From positions 248,001 to 312,000 of the forward strand of contig NZ_JAOVZV010000010.1 in the NCBI RefSeq assembly GCF_026460945.1: DNA of 64,000 nt. The letters are read 5' to 3'. A model generated the notes under the pieces. The model was not told where the DNA came from and ran no database searches. It worked only from the letters and a program-made list of their open reading frames with translations. Shown here piece after piece: positions 37,341-52,701 of the stretch (positions are counted from its first letter, which is position 1; each line of letters starts with the position of its first letter). Position numbers and translations under genes: made by a program. The DNA is from Chryseobacterium luquanense. GTDB lineage: Bacteria; Bacteroidota; Bacteroidia; Flavobacteriales; Weeksellaceae.

Positions 37341-38534
37341 CTAAAAACTATACCCGTTTCTCTTGGCAATTTCCGCAATCGATTTTTCAATGGCTTTTCC
37401 AAAATCATCACTTTCTGAATTTCCACGCTTTTTCGTTTCAACATCAATGAATTCTTGTCTTTTTTTCGCTAAAACTTCAATTTCTTTTTGAATTTTTTCC
37501 CGGTCTGAAGATTTTTGAGCAACAATTTTTGTGATTTCAGCTTTGCTTTTTCCTCTTAATTCTGACGGTAATTCCTCTTCTTTTACCGATGAAATATAGC
37601 TTTTGTCTTTCTCAACTCTATCCACCAAATCCCAGTGATCATTTTTATAAGCATTCTTTTTAGATTTGCTCACTGCTCTTTCCACGGCATTGGAAGAAGA
37701 GACCGATTCTGCATTAACATCTTGAATTGCCTGTTTATTTTTCATTTCCGAGCCACGGCTTCCATAGGAAATGTAGGTGTCGTTTAATTGAGAATTGTAC
37801 TGTGAAATTTTAACATCATAAGGGGTTTCAATATAAATTACTTTTTGGTCACTGTCGATATTGAAGAATTTTCCGTCTCCTAAAACGGCTCCGTTTTGCC
37901 AATTTGACTGAATACCTTCATCTCTTCCACCACAGAAAATTGTATTCGTGTAAATGTTCTTTTTCTTCGCCTGAGGAACCGTTTCTTTGTAGTTGATTCT
38001 TCCCTGGTCAAAAGGTTCATTTCCTGCAATGTAAATTAACTTCATACTTTTTTCGTTTCCGTCCCATTTTAAATTGATTGAGGCGTCACGAATGACTGCT
38101 CCGCAATATTCATTTCCGCCATTGGTTTTTAAAGCGAAAAGTTTTTCTGAAACCAAATCCAAATCCTGCGTAAGCGGAGTAACTTGTCTGATGAAATTTT
38201 CATCGCTCAAACCATCGTTTCCGTATTCATACAAAGCAATTTCTACTTGTGGCGCTTTTCCGTTGTATTTTAAAGTGGTTAAAGTATTGACAATATTCCA
38301 AAGTCTGGATTTTGCCTGATCTATTAAGCCATCCATACTGTTAGACGTGTCCAAAAGCAAAGCCACCTGAATTTTATTATCCTTTGAAACCGAAATTTGC
38401 GGTTCTGCAGAAATATTACTTTCCATCACTTCTCTATCGTTGGCCTTGCTGCTGCAACGATTATCTGAAATTTTACCTGTACTCAAAAAAGCAATTACAC
38501 TTGCTGTTACTGTTAAAATTTTCAATGTGTACAT
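37341..38534 (-). CDS. Exported VWA-domain protein of the LytTR gene block
   Basis: 397 residues. A signal-like N-terminus (1-22) precedes a VWA domain (~55-235) with MIDAS residues D62, S64 and S66 in LLLDTSNSMDGL. The C-terminal ~150 residues are charged and helical (KAEITKIVAQKSSDREKIQK). It starts 46 bp after the MuiA-like gene and is probably in its operon. VWA domains bind partners through a divalent metal; the partner is unknown. Confidence 0.85.
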   Translation of the reverse strand: MYTLKILTVTASVIAFLSTGKISDNRCSSKANDREVMESNISAEPQISVSKDNKIQVALLLDTSNSMDGLIDQAKSRLWNIVNTLTTLKYNGKAPQVEIALYEYGNDGLSDENFIRQVTPLTQDLDLVSEKLFALKTNGGNEYCGAVIRDASINLKWDGNEKSMKLIYIAGNEPFDQGRINYKETVPQAKKKNIYTNTIFCGGRDEGIQSNWQNGAVLGDGKFFNIDSDQKVIYIETPYDVKISQYNSQLNDTYISYGSRGSEMKNKQAIQDVNAESVSSSNAVERAVSKSKKNAYKNDHWDLVDRVEKDKSYISSVKEEELPSELRGKSKAEITKIVAQKSSDREKIQKEIEVLAKKRQEFIDVETKKRGNSESDDFGKAIEKSIAEIAKRNGYSF

Positions 38535-38580: not shown

Positions 38581-40176
38581 CTATCTGCTGTAATATTGAA
38601 TCTGCATCTCTTTAGGATACTTTACTTCATAAGAGAAATTGATTTTATCTGAACTTCCGCTGGAAATATTTCTGTTCCAAAGAATGCTTCCGGTTTTTTC
38701 ATCATAAATTCCGTTACCGATTTCTAAAGATTTTACCGTGATTTTTGAGTTTTCACTTAGAGGAAGCTGGTCAAGAATTTCCAATTCGATATTTTCTTTC
38801 GTATTGTTTCTCACGGTTATTTGATAAGATTCGGTTTCCCATTTATTTGAGTTGAGTGCTTTCTGTGAAGTTTTATCTTCAAGCTTGATTCTTTTCACCA
38901 CAATTCTTTCATCAACACCAAGAGAAATCGGGAACTCATCTTTTACATAATTGCTTGTGATATTCGTTTTTCCGATGTAATTATCTTCAAAATAAATATT
39001 CGCTTCGCCAGAAATAAGATTTAAATTCTGCCAGTTTTTCACGAAAGCCATTAAGAAAACCTGATTGTTAAGTTTCGGAACCGTATGATATTTATAAGTA
39101 GATTCTACATTTTTCTTATCTAAAATCACATATTGCTCTTTTTCCTGACTTACAATGGTTTGGTTAAATTTCAATTCATACAAAACATTCATCTGATTAT
39201 CAGAAACCGTTGCAACAGGAATCTGACTTGGTGCAGCAACCTCAGCTCGCATTTGATAAGAATTTGACATATCAGCCTTCGCTTTTTGCATATATCCAAC
39301 TTTTGCATCATCATAATTATGAGGCGAATATTCTGCTACATACAATGGCGATAAAATAGGTCTGTTTTGGTTATAAGAAGGTTTGTAAGTAGACACGAAA
39401 AGTTTCACATTGTTCCAGTCTTGTCCTGTTTTTTGGTAAATTTTCCCTTTGTAGACAATTTCCAGAGGTTTTTTGGTGGATAAAGCCCGCAAATCATAAG
39501 AAGGAACCCAACCTGCATTAGAAACAATATAGCTTACGCCGAGATTGAGATTCATTTCATTGTCAGCAAGAATTTCGAGGATCAATTCTTTTGTGTTGGT
39601 ATTTTTATGAGTCTGTTCTTCGGCAAATTGTTTGTTGATTTTGGCAATGCTTTCATCAAGGGTAGTTTTTTGTTCATTCAGAAGAAAAGCCTGATTGTCG
39701 ATTTCCAGCATTCTCTTTCTGTAAAATTCTGTCAGTTTAATAAGTTGTTCCTGCGGAGTCGATTTATCGTTCGTTGAAACTTTAATATTATCATTAATGA
39801 TATTTTGTTCGCCTGCTAAATTTTTAATCTGAATATTTAATAAATTGACCTGTCTCTGAAATTTTTTTCTTTCATCATCCAGTTTTTTTTCGCCATCGGT
39901 CATTTCATCATTTTTAAGATAATTGCTTTGTGGAGTGATAGACAAAAGGGTTGTGTTTTTCTCAAGATTGATTTTGTAGGTATTTTCATCCAAATCATTA
40001 GGGAGATTGATGATTTTTATGGTGTTTCTTCCTTTTTGAAGAGTAATGTTCGTGCTTCCGAAAACTTTTGCTCCCTGCAAAAATACAGTGGCTTGTTTCA
40101 CATCGATTTCTTTTTTAATTTCCTGAGATTTAAAAAACGAAACCATAAAAATGAATATAAAAAAAGAGTGTCGCAT
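38581..40176 (-). CDS. DUF4139 / MuiA-like exported protein
   Basis: 531 residues with signal peptide (1-17). An N-terminal DUF4140-like strand region (VKQATVFLQGAKVFGSTNIT) precedes a long coiled coil (~90-195). The C-terminal DUF4139 domain includes VSYIVSNAGWVPSYDLRALS and ILWNRNISSGSSDKINFSYE. The family is called mucoidy-inhibitor-like after a Rhizobium-type protein, but its molecular role is unknown. A two-half-site element lies 61-91 bp upstream. Confidence 0.9.
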   Translation of the reverse strand: MRHSFFIFIFMVSFFKSQEIKKEIDVKQATVFLQGAKVFGSTNITLQKGRNTIKIINLPNDLDENTYKINLEKNTTLLSITPQSNYLKNDEMTDGEKKLDDERKKFQRQVNLLNIQIKNLAGEQNIINDNIKVSTNDKSTPQEQLIKLTEFYRKRMLEIDNQAFLLNEQKTTLDESIAKINKQFAEEQTHKNTNTKELILEILADNEMNLNLGVSYIVSNAGWVPSYDLRALSTKKPLEIVYKGKIYQKTGQDWNNVKLFVSTYKPSYNQNRPILSPLYVAEYSPHNYDDAKVGYMQKAKADMSNSYQMRAEVAAPSQIPVATVSDNQMNVLYELKFNQTIVSQEKEQYVILDKKNVESTYKYHTVPKLNNQVFLMAFVKNWQNLNLISGEANIYFEDNYIGKTNITSNYVKDEFPISLGVDERIVVKRIKLEDKTSQKALNSNKWETESYQITVRNNTKENIELEILDQLPLSENSKITVKSLEIGNGIYDEKTGSILWNRNISSGSSDKINFSYEVKYPKEMQIQYYSR

Positions 40177-40236
40177 TGTTTATTATTTTAAAGTTCTACA
40201 GTAAAATTACCCCGATTAGAAACCGGAAATTTGAAG

Positions 40237-40267
40237 ACTTGGTGAACTTAGGTTTTCACTTGGTGGA
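40237..40267. promoter_or_regulatory. LytTR-type operator, site A (upstream of the MuiA-like gene)
   Basis: ACTTGGTGAA at 40237 and ACTTGGTGGA at 40258, 21 bp apart, with GGTTTTC before the second half. It begins 61 bp upstream of the 40176 start codon. A minus-strand TAATTTTA box (40209-40202) places it at about -41 to -71, an activator position. No TTTG is present at -33. Confidence 0.7.
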
Positions 40268-40278
40268 AGTTTTTAGAT

Positions 40279-40310
40279 AAAAAAAAGACAGCCATTTCAG
40301 ACTGTCTTTT
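40279..40310 (-). terminator. Terminator of the SIMPL gene (minus strand)
   Basis: AAAAGACAG / CTGTCTTTT with a ten-base loop; on the minus strand a T-run follows. It sits seven bases past the 40317 stop. Confidence 0.75.
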
Positions 40311-40316
40311 CACCTA

Positions 40317-40991
40317 TTAAAGAATTTCGTATCTTGTTTTGATGCTGAATTTCAGCTTAATGTTTTCGATGTTATCAAAAGCAAAATCAACACTTTGGTC
40401 TGCTGCTTCCATCTGTACGTTGGCCATTTTGCTTCTGTAAGCAACGGGAAGAATAGAATCACTCATATAATCTTCAATTTCTGTAATCTCTATCGCATCA
40501 CCTGTCTTTTTGTTAATACTTCCCAAAATATAATCTGCTTTTTCTTTCGCTGCTATCAAGGCATTGATTTTAACGGTTTTTCTGAAATCTGCAATTTTTG
40601 TGTTTTTAATTTCTGCAATATTCAGATTGCTTACCCATTTTTGATTTAAATCTTCAAAAAGCTTACTCACATTGGTTTTTGCATTTACTTTAAACTGAAA
40701 ACTCTTAGTAAATTTTGTCGTTTTCGAATATAAATTCTGGTACATCGATTTGAATTTAATGTCTTCATTTTTCACGCTGTTGTTTTTCAGGGTTTCAAAT
40801 AAAAGTTTTTCGCTGTCTGCCAATTGGTTTTTATTGTCGGCTTTTATTCCGATATTAAAAATGATTTCATCCGGTTCTACTTCCATTTCGGCAACTCCCG
40901 TTACTTCAATTGCGTTTTTTTTGATTTCCTGCGCATTCACCAAGCTTCCTGCTGCAAAAATCCCTACTAATAAAAGGTGTTTCAATTTCAT
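40317..40991 (-). CDS. SIMPL-domain (DUF541) periplasmic protein
   Basis: 224 residues with a signal peptide (MKLKHLLLVGIFAAGSLVNA). The SIMPL pattern is clear: IEVTGVAEMEVEPDEIIFNI near the start of the mature part, VNALIAAKEKADYIL in the middle. Family members (for example E. coli YggE) are envelope proteins linked to oxidative-stress tolerance. Operator site B begins exactly 61 bp upstream of its start codon, the same distance as site A from its gene. Confidence 0.9.
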   Translation of the reverse strand: MKLKHLLLVGIFAAGSLVNAQEIKKNAIEVTGVAEMEVEPDEIIFNIGIKADNKNQLADSEKLLFETLKNNSVKNEDIKFKSMYQNLYSKTTKFTKSFQFKVNAKTNVSKLFEDLNQKWVSNLNIAEIKNTKIADFRKTVKINALIAAKEKADYILGSINKKTGDAIEITEIEDYMSDSILPVAYRSKMANVQMEAADQSVDFAFDNIENIKLKFSIKTRYEIL

Positions 40992-41051
40992 AATGTTTTA
41001 TTTTAAATTTCTAAAGTAAAATTACTGCGAATAGAAACTGAAATTTTGTAA

Positions 41052-41082
41052 ACTTGGTAAACAGAGGTTTTCACTTGGTGGA
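41052..41082. promoter_or_regulatory. LytTR-type operator, site B (upstream of the SIMPL gene)
   Basis: ACTTGGTAAA at 41052 and ACTTGGTGGA at 41073, 21 bp apart with GGTTTTC between. A minus-strand TAATTTTA box lies at 41024-41017. The DNA between box and site resembles that of site A (TTTCTA, TCG, GTAATTTTACT), so the whole promoter is conserved. Confidence 0.7.
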
Positions 41083-41089
41083 ATAATTG

Positions 41090-42241
41090 TCAATCAACAA
41101 AAACATGAAATCTGTCCTGTAGTGCATTCATTTCTTTGTAAGGAATAAGCTTAGCATAAATTGTCTGATGATTAAAAGAAAAAGCAATGGAAGCATCTTT
41201 CTCATTTTTTACGAATAAGTGTTTGGAAATATTCTTTTGATAATCTTCAATGATAATTTGATTATCAAAAGAAATATCATAATGAAATGCAGTCATCTTC
41301 TCTGAAGATTTTTCCATGAAAATCAAATATTGGTCTTTATGAAAGAATACATATTGGTATGGACTTTCGGAAGATGTGATTTGATAAACTCCTTTTAATT
41401 GTGTTGAATTAATTTTGTCATCGGTGTGAAAATTTTCATCTAAATACGGCATCCCAATTTTGATAAATGCGATTCCTAGAATCAGAATCTTTAAAAAAGT
41501 TTTATACGGAAGAACTGAAGTTTTGTCAAGAAAAGTTTCTTTCGGAAGTTTAATCATTTTCAGAAAGAGTTTCCAGCCTTTTTTTCTTAACAGAAAAATA
41601 CTCATCAAAAGTAAAATCAATGAAAAGAATTTCACCGAAATATCAAAACTGATATTGATAATTAATATTTGACTAAAACAAATCATTGCTATCAATAATC
41701 CCAAAAACTGAGATCGCTTAAATAACAATAAAATGCCGGAAAAAATCTCAATTGAACCAGTAATATTATTATATATTTTAGACGTTCCAATCGTACTCCA
41801 GAATAAAATGTCTTTGTCTAAATTTCCAAATTTTGTAAACAGAATATTCGATTCAGGCTCTGGAAATTGTGTTTTGAAAATTTTATCAACGCCGTATTTT
41901 ATCAGAATTACAGAAATGTAAATTACACAAACATATTCTGTTATTAATAAAAAACTTTTTGTCCATTTTTTCTTTATCAGAAAACTGAAAATTGTCGAAG
42001 TGATCAATAAAATAATAATTAAAATCAACATGGAACAACTATCCGAACTGTAATCTATTCTGTTGTTCTTTTTATTAAGTAAATTCTCTAAAAGAAATTG
42101 AGTAAAATCTCCAAATATAAAATAAGTAGCTTTTAACTGTAAATTAGTTAGAAAACCCAATGGGAAAAACAGAATAAACTGAAGAAGAAAAATACCAGAA
42201 AAAGTAGCAATCTTTCTGAAAAATATTGATTTGAATTCCAC
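41090..42241 (-). CDS. DoxX-like multi-spanning membrane protein
   Basis: 383 residues with about seven or eight hydrophobic spans in the first ~275 residues. It resembles the DoxX-like family, including a G-x-x-x-I/L-x-x-x-G bundle (ITGSIEIFSGILLLFKRSQF). The C-terminal ~115 residues (from DENFHTDDKINS) are soluble. The function of flavobacterial members is unknown. It begins 11 bp after the 42253 gene and shares its promoter with operator site C. Confidence 0.65.
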   Translation of the reverse strand: MEFKSIFFRKIATFSGIFLLQFILFFPLGFLTNLQLKATYFIFGDFTQFLLENLLNKKNNRIDYSSDSCSMLILIIILLITSTIFSFLIKKKWTKSFLLITEYVCVIYISVILIKYGVDKIFKTQFPEPESNILFTKFGNLDKDILFWSTIGTSKIYNNITGSIEIFSGILLLFKRSQFLGLLIAMICFSQILIINISFDISVKFFSLILLLMSIFLLRKKGWKLFLKMIKLPKETFLDKTSVLPYKTFLKILILGIAFIKIGMPYLDENFHTDDKINSTQLKGVYQITSSESPYQYVFFHKDQYLIFMEKSSEKMTAFHYDISFDNQIIIEDYQKNISKHLFVKNEKDASIAFSFNHQTIYAKLIPYKEMNALQDRFHVFVD

Positions 42242-42252
42242 AGAAATGCTTT

Positions 42253-42828
42253 TTAGCGATTTTTTCTATAAATAGATAAAGAAGCAAAAACAGCAATTGT
42301 TAGTACAAAAAGACACATCATTTCCTCTTTGGATTTTGAACTTTTTACTTCAGCAGTTTTTATTTTTCTCTTCGTAGAAATGGGTTTGTATTCTTTCGTT
42401 TTCTTGTCATATTTCAGGAAAACAGTACTGTCGATGTCATTCTGAAAGTTGTATGTTTCTTTGAGCGTTTTTTTCATACCTTCTATGTTATCATTAGAAA
42501 AAACTTGATGATTGTAAACGGTATCTCTTCCCGGTTTCCATTTTTCTGGGGTTTCGCTTCTTCGGGTTTTGCAGAATGTTGAGGTTACAATTACGCTTTT
42601 TTTATCGTCAATGATAATGACGCTATCCAATTTTGAATTGGTTACGTATCTTTCCGGCAAAACTCCAAGATTAGAATAATTGGTGTTGTAACGGTCTTCT
42701 ACAATACTTTTTTCAAAATATTTCATATCTCCGCTGTGACTTTTATAGGAGATTAATTTGGTTTGAGCAGAAATCTGAAAATTAGAAAATACCAATACAA
42801 TAGGTAATAAAAAAGATAATTTTTTCAT
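42253..42828 (-). CDS. Exported protein with C-terminal membrane span, unknown
   Basis: 191 residues. Signal peptide (1-21, ending ISAQ), a polar beta-rich middle (KSVIVTSTFCKTRRSETPEK) and a C-terminal span (~165-185, MMCLFVLTIAVFASLS) with basic end. No family recognised. It is the first gene of a two-gene unit, whose promoter (TAAGTTTG, minus strand, 42861-42854) faces operator site C. Confidence 0.6.
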   Translation of the reverse strand: MKKLSFLLPIVLVFSNFQISAQTKLISYKSHSGDMKYFEKSIVEDRYNTNYSNLGVLPERYVTNSKLDSVIIIDDKKSVIVTSTFCKTRRSETPEKWKPGRDTVYNHQVFSNDNIEGMKKTLKETYNFQNDIDSTVFLKYDKKTKEYKPISTKRKIKTAEVKSSKSKEEMMCLFVLTIAVFASLSIYRKNR

Positions 42829-42889
42829 GAGAATTAAGTTTAAAATTATACTGCAAACTTAATAGCCTTTCAAAAACAATATAAAGTCA

Positions 42890-42920
42890 ACTTGGTGAAT
42901 GAAGATTTTCACTTGGTGAA
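42890..42920. promoter_or_regulatory. LytTR-type operator, site C (between divergent operons)
   Basis: Two ACTTGGTGAA half-sites at 42890 and 42911, both perfect, 21 bp apart. It is 62 bp from the 42828 start (minus) and 40 bp from the kinase start (plus). From TAAGTTTG (minus) and TATCTTTG (plus) it falls at about -42/-72 and -41/-71, so it could serve both promoters and close an autoregulatory loop. Confidence 0.75.
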
Positions 42921-42947: not shown

Positions 42948-42955
42948 TATCTTTG
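42948..42955 (+). promoter_or_regulatory. TAnnTTTG box of the histidine kinase gene
   Basis: TATCTTTG ends four bases before the ATG at 42960, so the transcript should start at or next to the start codon. Operator site C occupies the region immediately upstream in place of a TTTG -33 element. Confidence 0.6.
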
Positions 42956-42959
42956 TTTT

Positions 42960-44732
42960 ATGAAATTTATTAGGCTTTTTGCGTTTTTTTTGATCTTGTT
43001 TTCTGCGAATAATTTGTATTCGCAAAGCAGCAGAGACACAAAAGAAATTGTAGCCGAATCTTCAAAGCTTAAAAAAGCAGTTGATACTAAAAATGAATCT
43101 GCAGAAGCTGATTCGTATTACAATATTGGCGAAACCTATTTCAACAGCGGAAATTTTCCAAAAAGTGAAGAGTATTTTATTAAATCTAAAAATATCTACG
43201 AAAAGCTCAATGACAAGCAAAACTTTGAAAAGGTAACCCGAAAACTGGCTCAAACTCAAGAGAGACAAAACAAAACGAAAGACGCCATCAGTAATTATCA
43301 GGCGGCATCCAAAGAAAGCTTTTCTAAAAAAAGCAGGGCTTTAAATTCTAATGACGCTTCAAGACTTTCTTCACCTTCAGTTGCTCAAAAAGCGGAAGCG
43401 ATTCAGAATAATATAGAAATCAGCAAAAAGGAAAATGAAAATGCTGACTTAGCCGCAAGTTACAGCCAAATGGCAGAAGTGAATATTGAACAAAAAAATA
43501 TTCCCAAAGCGGAAGAAAACTTCACAAATGCGTACAAAATTTCGAAAGATAATGCGCCACAACAAGCCTTAGCAATTAATCAGAAACTGACGGATTTGTA
43601 TGTTGGAAATAAAGATTTTGACAAAGCTATTAAAGCTAAAAAAGAAGTTTTAAAAGAAGATTTTGTAAAAGATAATTCTCAGAAAAAAGTTGAGCAGATT
43701 CAAGAGCTTGCAGATATTTACATTAAAAAAAATGATCCGAAAGAAGCCATAATTTTATTAAAAAATGCTTACGATATCGCTTTGAATAAGGGTCACACTT
43801 TGGAAGCGCAAAAAAGTGTCAAAAGACTCGATAGTTTGTACGCAATTTCTCAAAACACCGATGCTTCTGTGCAATTGTACCGTGATTTTCTAGGGAAATT
43901 ACCTGATTTGGTTTCGAAAGACAGAAGTTTGGTGGATAATAAAATTCTTGAAGATACTGAACAAAAAATTTCCCAGCTTCTACAGGAAAAGAAACTGAAA
44001 GACGAGTTGATTCGCAAGAAAAATCTATTCAATTATAGTTTAATTGGAGCTTTACTGATTTTAATTGGTTTGATGTTTTTCATTTTCAGAACGTTGAAAA
44101 AAGTCAAGATCAAAAACAAAAAAATTGCTTTGCAGTCGCTTCGTCGGGAGATGAATCCGCATTTTATTTTTAATAGTTTAAATTCTGTCAATCATTTTAT
44201 TGCGACAAATAACGAATTAGAGGCTAATCAATATTTAACCAAATTTTCAAAATTGATGCGTGGCGTGATGGAAAATTCTACAGAAGATTTTATTCCGTTT
44301 CAGCAGGAATTAGATTTGCTCCAAAACTATTTAGCTTTAGAAAAAACCCGTTTTGCAGATAAGTTTGATTACGAAATTGAAGTTGACGAAAGTTTAAATA
44401 CCCAAAGCTTAAAAGTTCCCGGCATGTTGATACAGCCGTTTCTTGAAAATGCAATCTGGCACGGCTTAAGATACAGAACAGAAAAAGGATTTTTGAGCTT
44501 AAAATTTGAAAAAAATAACGATTCTCTAAACATCTTCATAGAAGATAATGGTATTGGAATTGAAGAAAGTAAAAAACAAAAAACCGAACATCAGAAAACC
44601 CGAAAAGGCCGCGGAATGAAAAATACTTTAGAAAGGATTGCGCTGTTGAATGATTTGTATAAAAAAGATATTTCGTGTTCTGTAAAAGATTCTGAAAATG
44701 GGGTTTTTGTAAAGATTATAATGAATTTCTAA
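42960..44732 (+). CDS. TPR sensor histidine kinase, LytS/YpdA type
   Basis: 590 residues. Signal peptide ending YSQ (~21), periplasmic TPR repeats (~45-330), one membrane span (~356-376, LIGALLILIGLMFFIF) and a His_kinase domain. The phosphoacceptor is H401 in REMNPHFIFNSLNSVNH; the ATP-binding domain has PGMLIQPFLENAIWHGL and DNGIGIEESK. It phosphorylates the response regulator encoded 35 bp downstream. The TPR region suggests it senses protein-protein contact or envelope state rather than a small molecule. Confidence 0.93.
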   Translation: MKFIRLFAFFLILFSANNLYSQSSRDTKEIVAESSKLKKAVDTKNESAEADSYYNIGETYFNSGNFPKSEEYFIKSKNIYEKLNDKQNFEKVTRKLAQTQERQNKTKDAISNYQAASKESFSKKSRALNSNDASRLSSPSVAQKAEAIQNNIEISKKENENADLAASYSQMAEVNIEQKNIPKAEENFTNAYKISKDNAPQQALAINQKLTDLYVGNKDFDKAIKAKKEVLKEDFVKDNSQKKVEQIQELADIYIKKNDPKEAIILLKNAYDIALNKGHTLEAQKSVKRLDSLYAISQNTDASVQLYRDFLGKLPDLVSKDRSLVDNKILEDTEQKISQLLQEKKLKDELIRKKNLFNYSLIGALLILIGLMFFIFRTLKKVKIKNKKIALQSLRREMNPHFIFNSLNSVNHFIATNNELEANQYLTKFSKLMRGVMENSTEDFIPFQQELDLLQNYLALEKTRFADKFDYEIEVDESLNTQSLKVPGMLIQPFLENAIWHGLRYRTEKGFLSLKFEKNNDSLNIFIEDNGIGIEESKKQKTEHQKTRKGRGMKNTLERIALLNDLYKKDISCSVKDSENGVFVKIIMNF

Positions 44733-44767: not shown

Positions 44768-45502
44768 ATGAAAATAAAATCGGTAATCGTAGACGACGAA
44801 AAAATTGCAAGAGAAGTTCTGAGGAATTATCTCACAAAATACTGTCCTCAAATTGAGATTTTGGGCGAAGCGGAAAACATCAAAGAAGCCGTTCCTCTGA
44901 TTGCAGAAACGCAACCTCAACTCGTTTTTCTGGATGTTGAAATGCCTTTCGGAAACGCCTTTGATGTTCTGGAAGCGACCAAAGAGTTTTCTTACGAAAC
45001 CATTTTCATTACGGCATTTTCGCAATATTCACTTCAGGCTTTAAACAAATCTGCGAGTTATTATATTTTAAAACCAATTGACATTCAGGAATTGATTTTG
45101 GCGGTTAATAAAGTGGCTGAAAGTTTAGAAAAGAAAGACGAACTCAACCGAAACAAAATTCTCCTCGAAAATTTAAAGTTAAAACCTGAAAAACAACAGC
45201 TTATTCTCCCGACTTTGCAAGGTTTTGATGTGGTGAAAACGGAAGATATCGTACGGCTTCAGGCAGATGGGAATTTTACGCAGGTCTATCTTACAGACGG
45301 TTCCAAGAAAATGGTTTGCAGGTTTTTAAAGCATTTCGATGACTTGCTGGAGAATCCTTTTGTAAGAGTTCATCGTTCCCATATCATCAACACCGGTTTT
45401 GTGAAATCTTACCATAAAAGCGGAACAGCAACACTCTCTGACAATACTGAGATCGAAGTTTCCGGAAGTTTTAAAGATCAGTTTTTGAAAGTTTTTTCAT
45501 GA
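44768..45502 (+). CDS. LytTR-family response regulator
   Basis: 244 residues. Receiver domain (1-~120) with acidic pair D9-D10, phosphorylation site D56 (FLDVEMP) and the TAFSQYS and LKPID motifs. The LytTR DNA-binding domain (~140-244) has EDIVRLQADGNFTQVYLTDG and NPFVRVHRSHIINTGFVKSY. Such regulators bind direct repeats with ~21-bp start-to-start spacing; sites A-C have that geometry. The regulator is probably the activator of the neighbouring envelope genes. Confidence 0.95.
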   Translation: MKIKSVIVDDEKIAREVLRNYLTKYCPQIEILGEAENIKEAVPLIAETQPQLVFLDVEMPFGNAFDVLEATKEFSYETIFITAFSQYSLQALNKSASYYILKPIDIQELILAVNKVAESLEKKDELNRNKILLENLKLKPEKQQLILPTLQGFDVVKTEDIVRLQADGNFTQVYLTDGSKKMVCRFLKHFDDLLENPFVRVHRSHIINTGFVKSYHKSGTATLSDNTEIEVSGSFKDQFLKVFS

Positions 45503-48380: not shown

Positions 48381-50435
48381 ATGAAAAAATTAACGCTTTC
48401 TTTGTTTTTATTGGCTGGAATTTGTTCGCAAAATACGTTGAACGCTCAGGCTAAAACTACTAAAACATCAACTGCAGCAGATAAAGGTTTAGACATCAGC
48501 TTGATGGATAAATCTGTTCGTCCACAAGATGATTTCTACAACTACGTGAGTGGAACTTGGATGAAAACTGCTAAAATTCCTTCTGATAAACCAACTTGGG
48601 GAAGTTTCAACAAATTGGCTGATGATACAGACAATAATTCGATGACGATTTTAAATTCTCTTCTGAAAGATAAGTTTACAGATGGAAGTGAAGGTAAAAA
48701 AATCCAGGATTTGTATGCGACGTATATGAATATGGCGAAGAGAAATGCAGACGGAATCAAACCAATTCAGGAAAATATCAATAAGATTGATGCTATTAAA
48801 AATATTACAGATTTGCAGAATTATTTAGCATCTGTAACGAAAGACGGAGAAAATAATTTCTACGGATGGGGAGTTTATGCAGATCTTAAAGATTCTAATA
48901 TGAATGCAGTTTATCTTGGTGACGCTTCATTAGGTATGGGTAGAGATTACTATCAGAAAGTTGATGCTAAAAACACAGAAGCACTTGCAGAATACCAAAA
49001 GTATGTAGCTTCTATGTTGAAAGAATTAGGCTACAAAAACGCTGATGCAGCTGCAAAAGGAATTGTAGATTACGAAAAAAGTATTGCTAAACATTTGTTG
49101 ACAAACGAACAAAGCCGTGATAATACGCTTCAGTACAATCCGAAAACGATGGCGGAACTAAAAACTTTGGTTAAAAATGTAGATCTTCCTGCTTATCTTA
49201 AAAAAGTTGGAGTAAATACAGATAAAGTAATTATCGGGGAATTAGGATATTACAAGAACTTTGACCAACTGGTAAATGCCCAAACACTTCCAGTGATTAA
49301 AGATTATCTGAAATTTCACATGATCAGCGGAAGTGCTTCTTATCTAAGTGAGAAATTAGGAGACATGAAGTTTGCTTTCTATGGTAAATATTTAAGAGGG
49401 CAGCAAGAGCAGAGAGCTTTAAACAAAAGAGGGTATGAATTAATCAACGGATCTCTTGGTGAGGCTTTCGGTAAATTATATGTTGAAAAATATTTCCCGG
49501 CTTCAGCAAAAGCTCAAATGGTTGAGTTAATTGATTATTTAAAGAAAAGTTTCGCAGTTCACATCAACGGTTTGACGTGGATGTCTTCTACAACAAAAGA
49601 AAAAGCAATGATGAAGCTGAATAAATTCGCTGTAAAAGTTGCTTATCCTGATACTTGGAAAGACTATTCTAAATTGGTCATTACTCCGGAATCTAAAGGT
49701 GGAAATTTATATCAAAACCTTCAGAATATTGGTGAATGGCAATACAACAAAGAGTTGGCAAAAATCGGAAAACCGGTTGACAAAACAGAATGGGGAATGA
49801 CTCCTCAAACGGTGAATGCATATTATAACCCTGTGTATAACGAAATCGTTTTCCCTGCTGCAATTCTTCAGCCGCCTTTCTTTAATCCTCAAGCGGATGC
49901 TGCTGTGAATTTTGGTGGAATTGGTGCTGTTATCGGTCACGAAATCTCTCACGGATTTGATGATTCCGGCGCTCAGTTTGACGCAGATGGTAACTTGGTA
50001 GATTGGTGGACTCCTGAAGATAAAGCCAACTTCGAAAAAGCAACTAAAGCTTTAGCTGCTCAATACGACAAATATGAGCCGGTAAAAGGGACTTTCGTAA
50101 ACGGAACTTTTACAAACGGTGAAAATATTGCAGATTTAGGAGGTGTAAATATCGCTTACGATGCACTTCAAATGTATTTGAAAGATAAAGGAAACCCTGG
50201 AACAATCAGTGGTTATACACAAGATCAAAGATTTTTCTTAAGCTGGGCAACCGTTTGGAGAACCTTATCAAGTGAAAAATACATGATCAATCAAGTGAAA
50301 ACAGATCCGCATTCTCCTGGATATTTCAGAAGTTTTGCGCCTCTAATGAATGTTGATGCTTTCTATAAAGCGTTCGACGTGAAACCAGGTGACAAATTAT
50401 ACAAAAAACCGGAAGAAAGAATTAAAATCTGGTAA
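48381..50435 (+). CDS. M13-family metallopeptidase (copy 1)
   Basis: 684 residues with a signal peptide (1-23). The zinc motif HEISH is at 520-524 in GAVIGHEISHGFDDSGAQFD; the third ligand lies in GENIADLGG (E581, with D585). VNAYYNPVYNEIVFPAAILQ is the substrate-binding NAYY segment and the end YKKPEERIKIW is the neprilysin-type C-terminus. It is a periplasmic or surface oligopeptidase. The 50602 gene is a close tandem paralogue. Confidence 0.95.
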   Translation: MKKLTLSLFLLAGICSQNTLNAQAKTTKTSTAADKGLDISLMDKSVRPQDDFYNYVSGTWMKTAKIPSDKPTWGSFNKLADDTDNNSMTILNSLLKDKFTDGSEGKKIQDLYATYMNMAKRNADGIKPIQENINKIDAIKNITDLQNYLASVTKDGENNFYGWGVYADLKDSNMNAVYLGDASLGMGRDYYQKVDAKNTEALAEYQKYVASMLKELGYKNADAAAKGIVDYEKSIAKHLLTNEQSRDNTLQYNPKTMAELKTLVKNVDLPAYLKKVGVNTDKVIIGELGYYKNFDQLVNAQTLPVIKDYLKFHMISGSASYLSEKLGDMKFAFYGKYLRGQQEQRALNKRGYELINGSLGEAFGKLYVEKYFPASAKAQMVELIDYLKKSFAVHINGLTWMSSTTKEKAMMKLNKFAVKVAYPDTWKDYSKLVITPESKGGNLYQNLQNIGEWQYNKELAKIGKPVDKTEWGMTPQTVNAYYNPVYNEIVFPAAILQPPFFNPQADAAVNFGGIGAVIGHEISHGFDDSGAQFDADGNLVDWWTPEDKANFEKATKALAAQYDKYEPVKGTFVNGTFTNGENIADLGGVNIAYDALQMYLKDKGNPGTISGYTQDQRFFLSWATVWRTLSSEKYMINQVKTDPHSPGYFRSFAPLMNVDAFYKAFDVKPGDKLYKKPEERIKIW

Positions 50436-50440
50436 AATAT

Positions 50441-50470
50441 AAACCGCTCAGCAATGAGCGGTTTTTTTTT
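50441..50470 (+). terminator. Rho-independent terminator after M13 copy 1
   Basis: AAACCGCTCA / TGAGCGGTTT around GCAA, with a nine-T tail. It separates the two peptidase genes transcriptionally. Confidence 0.9.
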
Positions 50471-50601
50471 ATGAATATCAATTATTTAAAAACCAACAAC
50501 TAACAACCAATCACCAACAACATTTAACAAGAATTCAATGATTCAGATTTAACATAAATTCTTATATTTGATCAAACGGATTACAATTCAAAATTAATTT
50601 A

Positions 50602-52701
50602 ATGAAAAAACTAAATATTGCAGTACTTGCATTCTCAGGTATTGTATTTCTAAATTCTTGTGGAACTGCAAAAAAAATTACTGAAAAACCCGAAGAAAAA
50701 ATCAACTTAGTTCGTGCTGAACCGGTGAAAAATATAGAACAAAAAGAAGAAGGTTTGAATCTTGCTTACATGGACAAGTCTGTTCGTCCGCAGGATGATT
50801 TCTTCAGTTATGTAAACGGAAATTGGGTAAAAGAAACTCAGATTCCTTCTGATAAAGCAAGTTGGGGATCTTTCAATGCATTGAGAGAAAATGTAGACGA
50901 TGCTTCACTTGATATTTTGAATAAAATTTTGACTGAAAAGTATGAAGTGGGTTCAGAAGGACAAAAAATCCAGAATCTGTACGCATCTTTCATGGATGTC
51001 GAAAAAAGAAATGCAGCAGGAATTACTCCTATTAAATCAGATTTGGCTAAAATCGATGCCATCAAAAATGTAAATGACCTTCAGAAATATCTTTTAGAAG
51101 CAACCAAACTGGGAGATAATTCATTTTATGGATGGAGAGTTGGTGCAGATATGAAGAATTCCAATATGAATGCGGTTTACTTAGGCGGTCCGGATCTTGG
51201 TTTAGGAAGAGATTATTACCAAAAAGTAAACGAAGCCAACACGAAAACTTTAGCAGAATATCAAAAATATGTTGCGCAGTTATTCGGAGTTTTAGGTTAT
51301 AAAAATTCTGATTCCGCTGCGAAAAATGTTGTAGATTTTGAAAAACAATTGGCCAATTATTTATTGACTTTAGAGCAAAACAGAGATGCCAATTTAAGAT
51401 ATAATCCTAAAAATGTATCTGAACTTTCAGGGTTGGTGAAAAATGTAAATCTCGCTAAATATCTTACAGATGCAGGTGTAAAAACAGATAAAGTGATTGT
51501 TGGAGAACTGAAATATTATCAAAATATGGATCAGTTTATCAATCAGAAGAACCTTCCTTTGCTGAAAGATTACTTGAAATATCATGTAATCAACGGCAAT
51601 GCAAGTAATTTAGGTGACAATTTAGATAATATCAGATTTGATTTTTATTCTAAATATCTTCAGGGACAAAAAGAACAACGTGCAATGAACAAAAGAGGTT
51701 TGGCGTTGGTGAATAGTGTGTTGGGGGAAGCTTTCGGTAAATTGTATGTTGATGAGTATTTCAGCCCGGAATCTAAAAAACAGATGGAAATGTACATTGA
51801 TTACATTTTAAAATCATTCAAAAAACATATCAATGATATGGATTGGATGTCTGCTGAAACCAAAGTAAAAGCTCAGGAAAAACTTTCAAAATTCTCAGTG
51901 AAAATTGCTTATCCTGATCAGTGGAAAGATTATTCTAAATTAAAAGTAGAATCTCCTTCTCAAGGTGCGAGTTTGTATTCAAACTTACAGAATGTTTCGG
52001 CGTGGCAATATCAGAAAAGTTTAGAAAAAGTAGGGAAACCTGTTGATAAAACAGAATGGGGAATGTCTCCTCAAACGGTCAACGCATATTACAGTGGTTC
52101 AAATAACGAAATTGTTTTCCCTGCAGCAATTTTGCAACCTCCTTTTTACAATCCAAAAGCTGATGCAGCCGTTAATTTTGGCGGAATCGGAGCAGTAATC
52201 GGTCACGAAATTTCTCATGGATTTGATGATAGCGGCTCAAGATTCGATGGTGATGGAAACCTTAATAATTGGTGGACAGATCAGGATCGTAAGAACTTTG
52301 ATGCAAAAGTAGGTCAATTGGCTGCTCAATACAACGCTTACGAACCTGTAAAAGGAAGTTTTGTGAACGGTAAATTCACAAGTGGTGAAAATATCGGAGA
52401 TTTAGGTGGAGTAGCGGTTGCTTACGATGCCCTTCAAATGTATCTTAAAGACAAAGGGAATCCGGGATTGATTTCAGGATTTAACCAAGATCAGAGATTT
52501 TTTATGAGTTGGGCAACGGTTTGGAGAACGAAGTCTACCGATCAGTACATGATAAATCAGGTGAAAACAGATCCGCATTCTCCTGGATATTTCAGAGCTT
52601 TCGGTCCTTTGGTAAATCAGGATTCTTTCATGAAAGCATTTGATATTAAACAAGGAGATAAATTATATAAAGCCCCTGCTGAAAGAATTAAAATTTGGTA
52701 A
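50602..52701 (+). CDS. M13-family metallopeptidase lipoprotein (copy 2)
   Basis: 699 residues. Here the leader is a lipoprotein signal with lipobox FLNSC followed by a charged linker. HEISH is at 535-539, GENIGDLGG supplies E596 and D600, and the NAYY and KIW motifs are intact. It is colinear with copy 1 over the whole catalytic part, so the two arose by tandem duplication and then diverged in anchoring: soluble versus lipid-bound. Confidence 0.95.
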   Translation: MKKLNIAVLAFSGIVFLNSCGTAKKITEKPEEKINLVRAEPVKNIEQKEEGLNLAYMDKSVRPQDDFFSYVNGNWVKETQIPSDKASWGSFNALRENVDDASLDILNKILTEKYEVGSEGQKIQNLYASFMDVEKRNAAGITPIKSDLAKIDAIKNVNDLQKYLLEATKLGDNSFYGWRVGADMKNSNMNAVYLGGPDLGLGRDYYQKVNEANTKTLAEYQKYVAQLFGVLGYKNSDSAAKNVVDFEKQLANYLLTLEQNRDANLRYNPKNVSELSGLVKNVNLAKYLTDAGVKTDKVIVGELKYYQNMDQFINQKNLPLLKDYLKYHVINGNASNLGDNLDNIRFDFYSKYLQGQKEQRAMNKRGLALVNSVLGEAFGKLYVDEYFSPESKKQMEMYIDYILKSFKKHINDMDWMSAETKVKAQEKLSKFSVKIAYPDQWKDYSKLKVESPSQGASLYSNLQNVSAWQYQKSLEKVGKPVDKTEWGMSPQTVNAYYSGSNNEIVFPAAILQPPFYNPKADAAVNFGGIGAVIGHEISHGFDDSGSRFDGDGNLNNWWTDQDRKNFDAKVGQLAAQYNAYEPVKGSFVNGKFTSGENIGDLGGVAVAYDALQMYLKDKGNPGLISGFNQDQRFFMSWATVWRTKSTDQYMINQVKTDPHSPGYFRAFGPLVNQDSFMKAFDIKQGDKLYKAPAERIKIW

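Follow-up and report, generated by a model that had tools for sequence, protein, structure and literature searches.

The closest described relatives of the system considered here are those in which a LytTR domain recognizes a pair of direct repeats, and our locus, in which a sensor kinase gene and a LytTR response regulator gene lie next to three paired ACTTGGTRRA sites, is found in a 64,000-nucleotide stretch of Chryseobacterium luquanense DNA (contig NZ_JAOVZV010000010.1, positions 248,001 to 312,000), hereafter the window. In particular, YpdA/YpdB of Escherichia coli likewise combines a kinase and a LytTR regulator with two 10-bp direct repeats and an 11-bp gap, i.e. a period of 21 bp (PMC4847170, in excerpt). 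The YpdB half-site, GGCATTTCAT, differs from ours, however, and so do the targets, which here would comprise several units and the regulator's own operon. Moreover, the present kinase has a periplasmic TPR region, unlike the YpdA sensor, which is of the multi-pass type. BtsR (YehT) is the best NCBIfam match of our regulator (E 2e-29), but its operator is a different one, and a score of 102.6 bits against an equivalog cut-off of 246 rules out that the regulator is BtsR itself. More generally, AgrA/LytTR activators bind, like the regulator proposed here, to pairs of direct repeats, of 9 bp and 10-13 bp apart, mostly 5' of the -35 element (PMC11347149, in excerpt). Their promoters are in general of the -10/-35 kind, whereas those here are of the Bacteroidota type, with a -7 element TAnnTTTG. 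Finally, the LytTR Regulatory Systems have the DNA-binding domain in common with our locus but in them the partner of the regulator is a membrane protein that inhibits it (PMC11347149, in excerpt), whereas here one finds a histidine kinase and a receiver domain, so that the locus does not belong among them.

We believe that the locus is a real and conserved LytTR regulon, a known kind of system with an undescribed job, in which binding is predicted; no description of such a regulon was found in the open-access literature, among the matches listed. Specifically, we hold with a probability of about 0.85 that the regulator encoded at 44768-45502 owns the paired site and that, driven by the kinase, it would switch several units of exported proteins and, by feedback, its own operon. 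The sites are very probably the neighbouring regulator's own switch, of a known type, since relatives keep or lose them together with the sensor. They have a fixed geometry, are conserved, and are linked to these genes and to this kinase, also where the genes lie apart.

Geometry of the three operators

The window holds three exact pairs of the form ACTTGGTRRA-N11-ACTTGGTRRA (operators 1 to 3, Table 1), at the places and with the 21-bp period given in the original prediction, and none occurred in any of 100 shuffles of the window. Over the whole genome they are the only pairs without mismatch; none has one or two mismatches, which bears out the claim that the motif is not common elsewhere, and the ten with three mismatches are background, because a reversed control pattern allowed up to three mismatches yields nine matches. 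Lone half-sites with at most one mismatch number 25 in the window against 16.2 expected, and 2 of 100 shuffles are equally high; it is the pairing, and not this mild enrichment, that is the outstanding feature. A lone exact half-site lies at 49993-50002, inside the first of two tandem M13 family peptidase genes (48381-52701).

All three operators share one orientation and fall within 2.7 kb. Between the operator and the left-hand start codon there are 60, 60 and 61 bases (operators 1, 2 and 3), which matches the 61, 61 and 62 bp previously given, and the -7 boxes do stand at a like distance, namely 27, 27 and 28 bp from the operator edge. By this layout (10 + 11 + 10 bp, then 27-28 bp to the -7 box) the site agrees with a LytTR-type operator, binding being predicted. 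Together, the three cover all five minus-strand genes. Operator 3, which had been assigned to the 42828 gene, is indeed 61 bp from it, but the kinase start facing it from 39 bp away, at 42960, had been overlooked; the site sits between two divergent genes and can also serve the regulator's own operon. Since it faces the kinase's own start as well, autoregulation of the kinase-regulator operon is suggested, and we regard it as likely.

As had been observed before, no TTTG is found at -33 of the three leftward promoters, nor is there one on the rightward, kinase side of operator 3. On this side, the -7 box is separated from the ATG by 4 nt, and transcription in Flavobacterium johnsoniae starts 4 or 5 nt past the -7 box (PMC6847099, in excerpt), so that the kinase mRNA may be leaderless; most F. 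johnsoniae transcripts are not (PMC6847099, in excerpt).

Conservation of the operator with the kinase

Related loci were taken from the best 80 of 303 matches (named, 1.69 Mb), which together with the window make 81 loci. In the 80, half-site pairs with at most one mismatch per half are spaced at 21 bp in 211 cases and at any other distance from 11 to 59 bp in at most 3. At positions adjoining the distal half, which the search pattern does not include, AAA (reverse strand) is present in 212, 211 and 203 of 213 sites, and in this respect the TTTTC linker noted earlier is real and conserved; in 167 of the 213, a TAnnTTT box begins at 27 bp (137 sites) or at 28 bp (30 sites), counted from the operator edge. 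The 81 loci contain 216 sites (127 perfect, 84 with one and 5 with two mismatches), all of identical orientation relative to the kinase, and among the 134 lying more than 150 bp from the kinase, all but one (133) have a -7 box at 26-29 bp.

What is more, the sites stand in front of particular genes. Counting an operator towards a gene if it overlaps the called start or lies no more than 130 bp upstream of it (ATG-only gene caller, 81 loci), one finds it before SIMPL in 75 of 75 cases, before DUF4139 in 43 of 45 and before the 42828 family in 11 of 11, i.e. in the orthologous promoters, as anticipated; further before the kinase in 59 of 81 cases with this caller, before VWA in 12 of 65, and before 42 of 305 genes with no homologue in the window. 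It was never found before the 41090 family, second in its unit (0/11), or before ten neighbour groups, the regulator gene included (0/731). Of the 81 loci, 11 have homologues of both 42253-42828 and 41090-42241, and no locus has only one of the two. Targets without a window homologue, 39 in number and identified by Pfam on one of each, are exported amidohydrolases (16), a second SIMPL-like protein (13), VWA proteins (7), small lipoprotein-like proteins (2, with no Pfam match) and a rhodanese (1). The notion of one regulon is well supported for the SIMPL, DUF4139/MuiA and VWA units. It had also included the 41090-42241 product as DoxX-like, an identity that finds no support, there being no Pfam or NCBIfam match at E <= 0.01; the structure model, of low confidence (mean pLDDT 58.9) and too poor to base a fold search on, suggests several membrane helices and a beta region at the C-terminus. 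In some relatives (loci L092 at 7542, L101 at 8064 and similar), the operator and -7 box are kept while the DUF4139 frame stops almost immediately or is not found and VWA comes next; the DUF4139 gene there seems to decay with its promoter retained.

On the kinase side, every one of the 81 loci has a site no more than 150 bp from the kinase as located by tblastn (82 sites in all). A promoter TTTG-N17-19-TAnnTTTG points towards the kinase at 37 of these 82, the window not among them, its -33 element starting 5-6 nt and its -7 element 27-28 nt from the operator edge, the latter being the distance of the target side. A leftward -7 box is likewise present at 37, both directions at 28 and neither at 36; operator 3 of the window has a leftward box and a rightward -7 box without a rightward TTTG.

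Within the genus, the pair (at most one mismatch) occurs in 140 of 148 genomes, with 1-5 copies each, against 5 of 148 for the reversed control pattern. The kinase (E <= 1e-100) is likewise present in 140, and the eight genomes without it are the same eight that lack the pair (Fisher test of co-occurrence, 2e-13); among the 140, the match is interrupted by internal stops in genomes G127 and G062 and is incomplete in a few more. The eight, which were checked for the pair, the kinase, SIMPL, DUF4139 and LytTR genes (VWA was not sought there), have no match to SIMPL at E <= 1e-5 and no close homologue of DUF4139, three of them having a paralogue at 28-30%, and they retain 2-9 LytTR genes each. 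On a tyrosyl-tRNA synthetase tree, i.e. one gene from 30 chosen genomes (28 of the 148 and two of other genera), the eight need four changes, three of which are forced by well-supported branches. G010 and G127 contain additional matches with one or two mismatches, but none of these has the linker; they look fortuitous, and we do not count them as operators dispersed through the genome.

That the site belongs to the target genes, and would be read by a diffusible protein, is best supported by four genomes in which distant targets still have the operator. In G142, the SIMPL-VWA unit and the kinase are 2.0 Mb apart on one contig, and the unit has a perfect operator 145 bp from the called start; in G053, the distance is 209 kb and a perfect operator stands at 61 bp. 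In both, the kinase retains its own operator. In G078, a DUF4139-VWA unit 18.6 kb from the kinase has its operator at 59 bp. In G150, which is of another genus, DUF4139 is on another contig, at least about 13 kb from the kinase as judged from contig ends, and has a perfect pair 150 bp from the called start, whereas in the 14 kb analysed around that kinase every pair has four mismatches or more. A further candidate, G021, in which SIMPL and its operator are on a different contig from the kinase, was not counted, for in this 360-contig draft both sites are near contig ends and the contigs may adjoin. Given the separated targets and the co-occurrence of pair and kinase, the claim of a LytTR-type operator with the neighbouring LytTR regulator as its likely owner is well supported.

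Beyond the genus, a scan of 128 genomes from other genera of the family found the pair in 4 of the 5 that have the kinase and in 3 of the 123 that do not (Fisher test, 1.6e-5); the reversed control pattern in the family scan occurred in 3 of 148 genomes. In another family of the order, where 36 of 296 genomes matched overall, the kinase is present at 42-45% identity in 11 genomes of one genus, together with a regulator that is 67-70% identical. A pair lies near the kinase in 11 of 11 (with two mismatches in nine and none in two), a VWA homologue adjoins in 11 of 11 and a DUF4139 gene, only 30-32% identical, in 9 of 11; the one tested of their proteins of about 320 aa is SIMPL by Pfam. We also considered the F. 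johnsoniae kinase/LytTR pair FJOH_RS09520/RS09515, one or other gene of which was mutated in each of five coevolved lines (PMC10197871, in excerpt). That it is this system was dropped as unsupported, not as disproved: for the published changes to fit, the regulator gene must have C at nt 44 together with G at nt 46, a combination present in 0 of 11 ATG-called orthologues from the other family, and start codons may differ.

Mechanism and competing explanations

In the mechanism that we propose, the membrane kinase (42960-44732) would sense something periplasmic through its TPR region and phosphorylate the regulator. The half-sites, which are spaced by two helical turns and lie just 5' of the promoters, at about -40 to -70 from the inferred start, would next be occupied by two LytTR domains. 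The bound regulator would most likely recruit RNA polymerase and thereby switch on three leftward units, i.e. the 42828 gene with the membrane protein gene, SIMPL, and DUF4139/MuiA with VWA, while on the other side of operator 3 it would act on the kinase-regulator operon itself. We are confident that the regulator would physically bind the site, and we think it probable that it activates rather than represses.

That said, several points weigh against this picture. Each co-loss could be a single deletion of the clustered locus, and because one deletion can remove everything, co-loss alone is no proof of function; the P-values, too, are overstated, because relatives are not independent. Among the 82 kinase-proximal sites there are 36 at which the patterns used reveal no leftward -7 box and no complete promoter to the right. 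A pair with one mismatch is also present in three genomes of the family that have no kinase; in G175 and G198 it lacks the T-rich linker, and in G154 (83% complete) it has a near-fit linker. In G224, which does have the kinase, the pair is a variant one, AATGGGTAAA-N11-AATGGGTAAA, between the VWA and kinase genes. In the other family, six of the 11 loci have a pair with three mismatches next to the kinase and a better one farther away. Finally, the missing TTTG, from which activation had been expected in the original prediction, lends it little support: of 170 gaps, 6 contain TTTG, where shuffling gives 10.4 on average and 1 at the least, a depletion that is not significant and that we have dropped as proof. 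All 6 are at kinase-proximal sites and 0 of the 133 other sites has TTTG, but the sequences compared are relatives of one another. In a survey of F. johnsoniae promoters, the -33 motif was much less evident than the other elements (PMC6847099, in excerpt).

Could the regulator bind the site and yet repress, with the exported proteins silenced until a signal reaches the kinase? A shortage of TTTG that is not significant does not call for an activator, and a LytTR repressor with direct repeats overlapping the -35 element does exist in CoxC (PMC11347149, in excerpt). Repression nevertheless appears unlikely, as the operator ends about 40 bp 5' of the inferred start and not over the promoter, its gap of 27-28 bp to the -7 box is as fixed as described above, and most LytTR regulators bind upstream of -35 and activate (PMC11347149, in excerpt). 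In other words, activation is better argued from the fixed upstream position of the operator than from the missing TTTG.

A considerably less probable alternative is that another DNA-binding protein owns the site. The second half and the linker form an inverted repeat, TTCAC-TTG-GTGAA, usable by a helix-turn-helix dimer, and with the linker side near invariant this makes a 13-bp palindrome at one half in many copies. The other half, however, is without this linker, hardly any spacing but the 21-bp direct period occurs, and the presence of the site tracks this kinase across two families and at separated targets. That the sites are a local repeat or duplicated intergenic DNA with no regulatory role, as their single orientation within 2.7 kb might suggest, can practically be dismissed, for linkers and flanks vary while half-sites and -7 distance stay fixed, sites accompany genes as far as 2 Mb away from the kinase, and they are absent from ten neighbour groups.

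Genes of the locus and possible role of the regulon

Judged by their domains, the products of the kinase and regulator genes, which lie on one strand 35 bp apart, are a LytTR two-component system: His_kinase PF06580 is matched at 77 bits (Pfam cut-off 25.2), PF00072 at 61.6 (30.2) and PF04397 at 44.3 (22.6). The closest named homologues of the kinase, among the matches listed, are from Chryseobacterium species, with up to 92% identity over the best segment. As for the targets, the SIMPL gene product matches PF04402 at 65.8 bits (cut-off 25.2) and that of 38581-40176 is placed in the MuiA family by TIGR02231 (254.6 bits, cut-off 112.6), while 37341-38534 reaches 20.5 bits for PF13519 against a cut-off of 27 (E 8e-4) and is hence called VWA-like only. 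Judged by eye, the target proteins start with a signal-peptide-like stretch and the 41090 protein with a membrane stretch. The genome has a second DUF4139 gene (C7:142098-143633), 28% identical and without a 21-bp repeat upstream, and the idea that DUF4139 paralogues elsewhere carry a like site was rejected, the 21-bp pair being found in 0 of 4 of their promoters (one in this genome, three in the motif-less genomes); one A/T-rich 22-bp repeat occurs among the four.

Table 1. Operators, promoter elements and genes of the locus (window coordinates).
Feature	Coordinates	Strand	Remarks
Operator 1	40237..40267	-	5' of the DUF4139/MuiA-like gene, which the VWA gene follows; TCCACCAAGT-N11-TTCACCAAGT when read towards the gene
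Operator 2	41052..41082	-	5' of the SIMPL gene
Operator 3	42890..42920	-	between the divergent 42828 gene and TPR kinase gene; probably serves both, autoregulation included
-7 box TAATTTTA	40202..40209	-	27 bp from operator 1
-7 box TAATTTTA	41017..41024	-	27 bp from operator 2
-7 box TAAGTTTG	42854..42861	-	28 bp from operator 3, leftward unit
-7 box TATCTTTG of kinase gene	42948..42955	+	27 bp from the other edge of operator 3; 4 nt before start codon
Sensor kinase	42960..44732	+	signal-peptide-like start, TPR region, one transmembrane stretch (by eye); PF06580 and HATPase_c (below cut-off)
Response regulator	44768..45502	+	receiver PF00072 and LytTR PF04397; predicted operator-binding protein
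42828 gene, exported protein	42253..42828	-	first of the leftward unit of operator 3; no Pfam/NCBIfam match over cut-off
Membrane protein	41090..42241	-	second of the leftward unit of operator 3; GTG start 11 bp past preceding stop
SIMPL (DUF541) protein	40317..40991	-	signal-peptide-like start; PF04402
DUF4139/DUF4140 MuiA family protein	38581..40176	-	signal-peptide-like start; PF13598, PF13600, TIGR02231
VWA-like protein	37341..38534	-	46 bp behind the DUF4139 gene; PF13519 below cut-off

What might such a regulon be for? The original prediction spoke of an envelope response, which would fit the exported targets; we lean somewhat towards a role in envelope upkeep or stress. One may go further and picture, tentatively and with more doubt than confidence, a dedicated envelope-surveillance system of Flavobacteriales, in which a periplasmic TPR kinase would govern a small regulon of purely exported or membrane proteins (one or two SIMPL proteins, a MuiA-type DUF4139 protein, VWA and, in some species, an exported amidohydrolase or rhodanese) and in which an operator working in both directions at 27-28 bp would fire the targets as well as the system's own leaderless kinase mRNA.

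SIMPL and DUF4139/MuiA proteins are widespread and, to our knowledge, without clear function, and both SIMPL and DUF4139 are named by Pfam as domains of unknown function. A conserved operator that ties them to one sensor kinase is a direct genetic handle on their role, and the locus further provides, for Bacteroidota, a predicted LytTR operator with support from two families.

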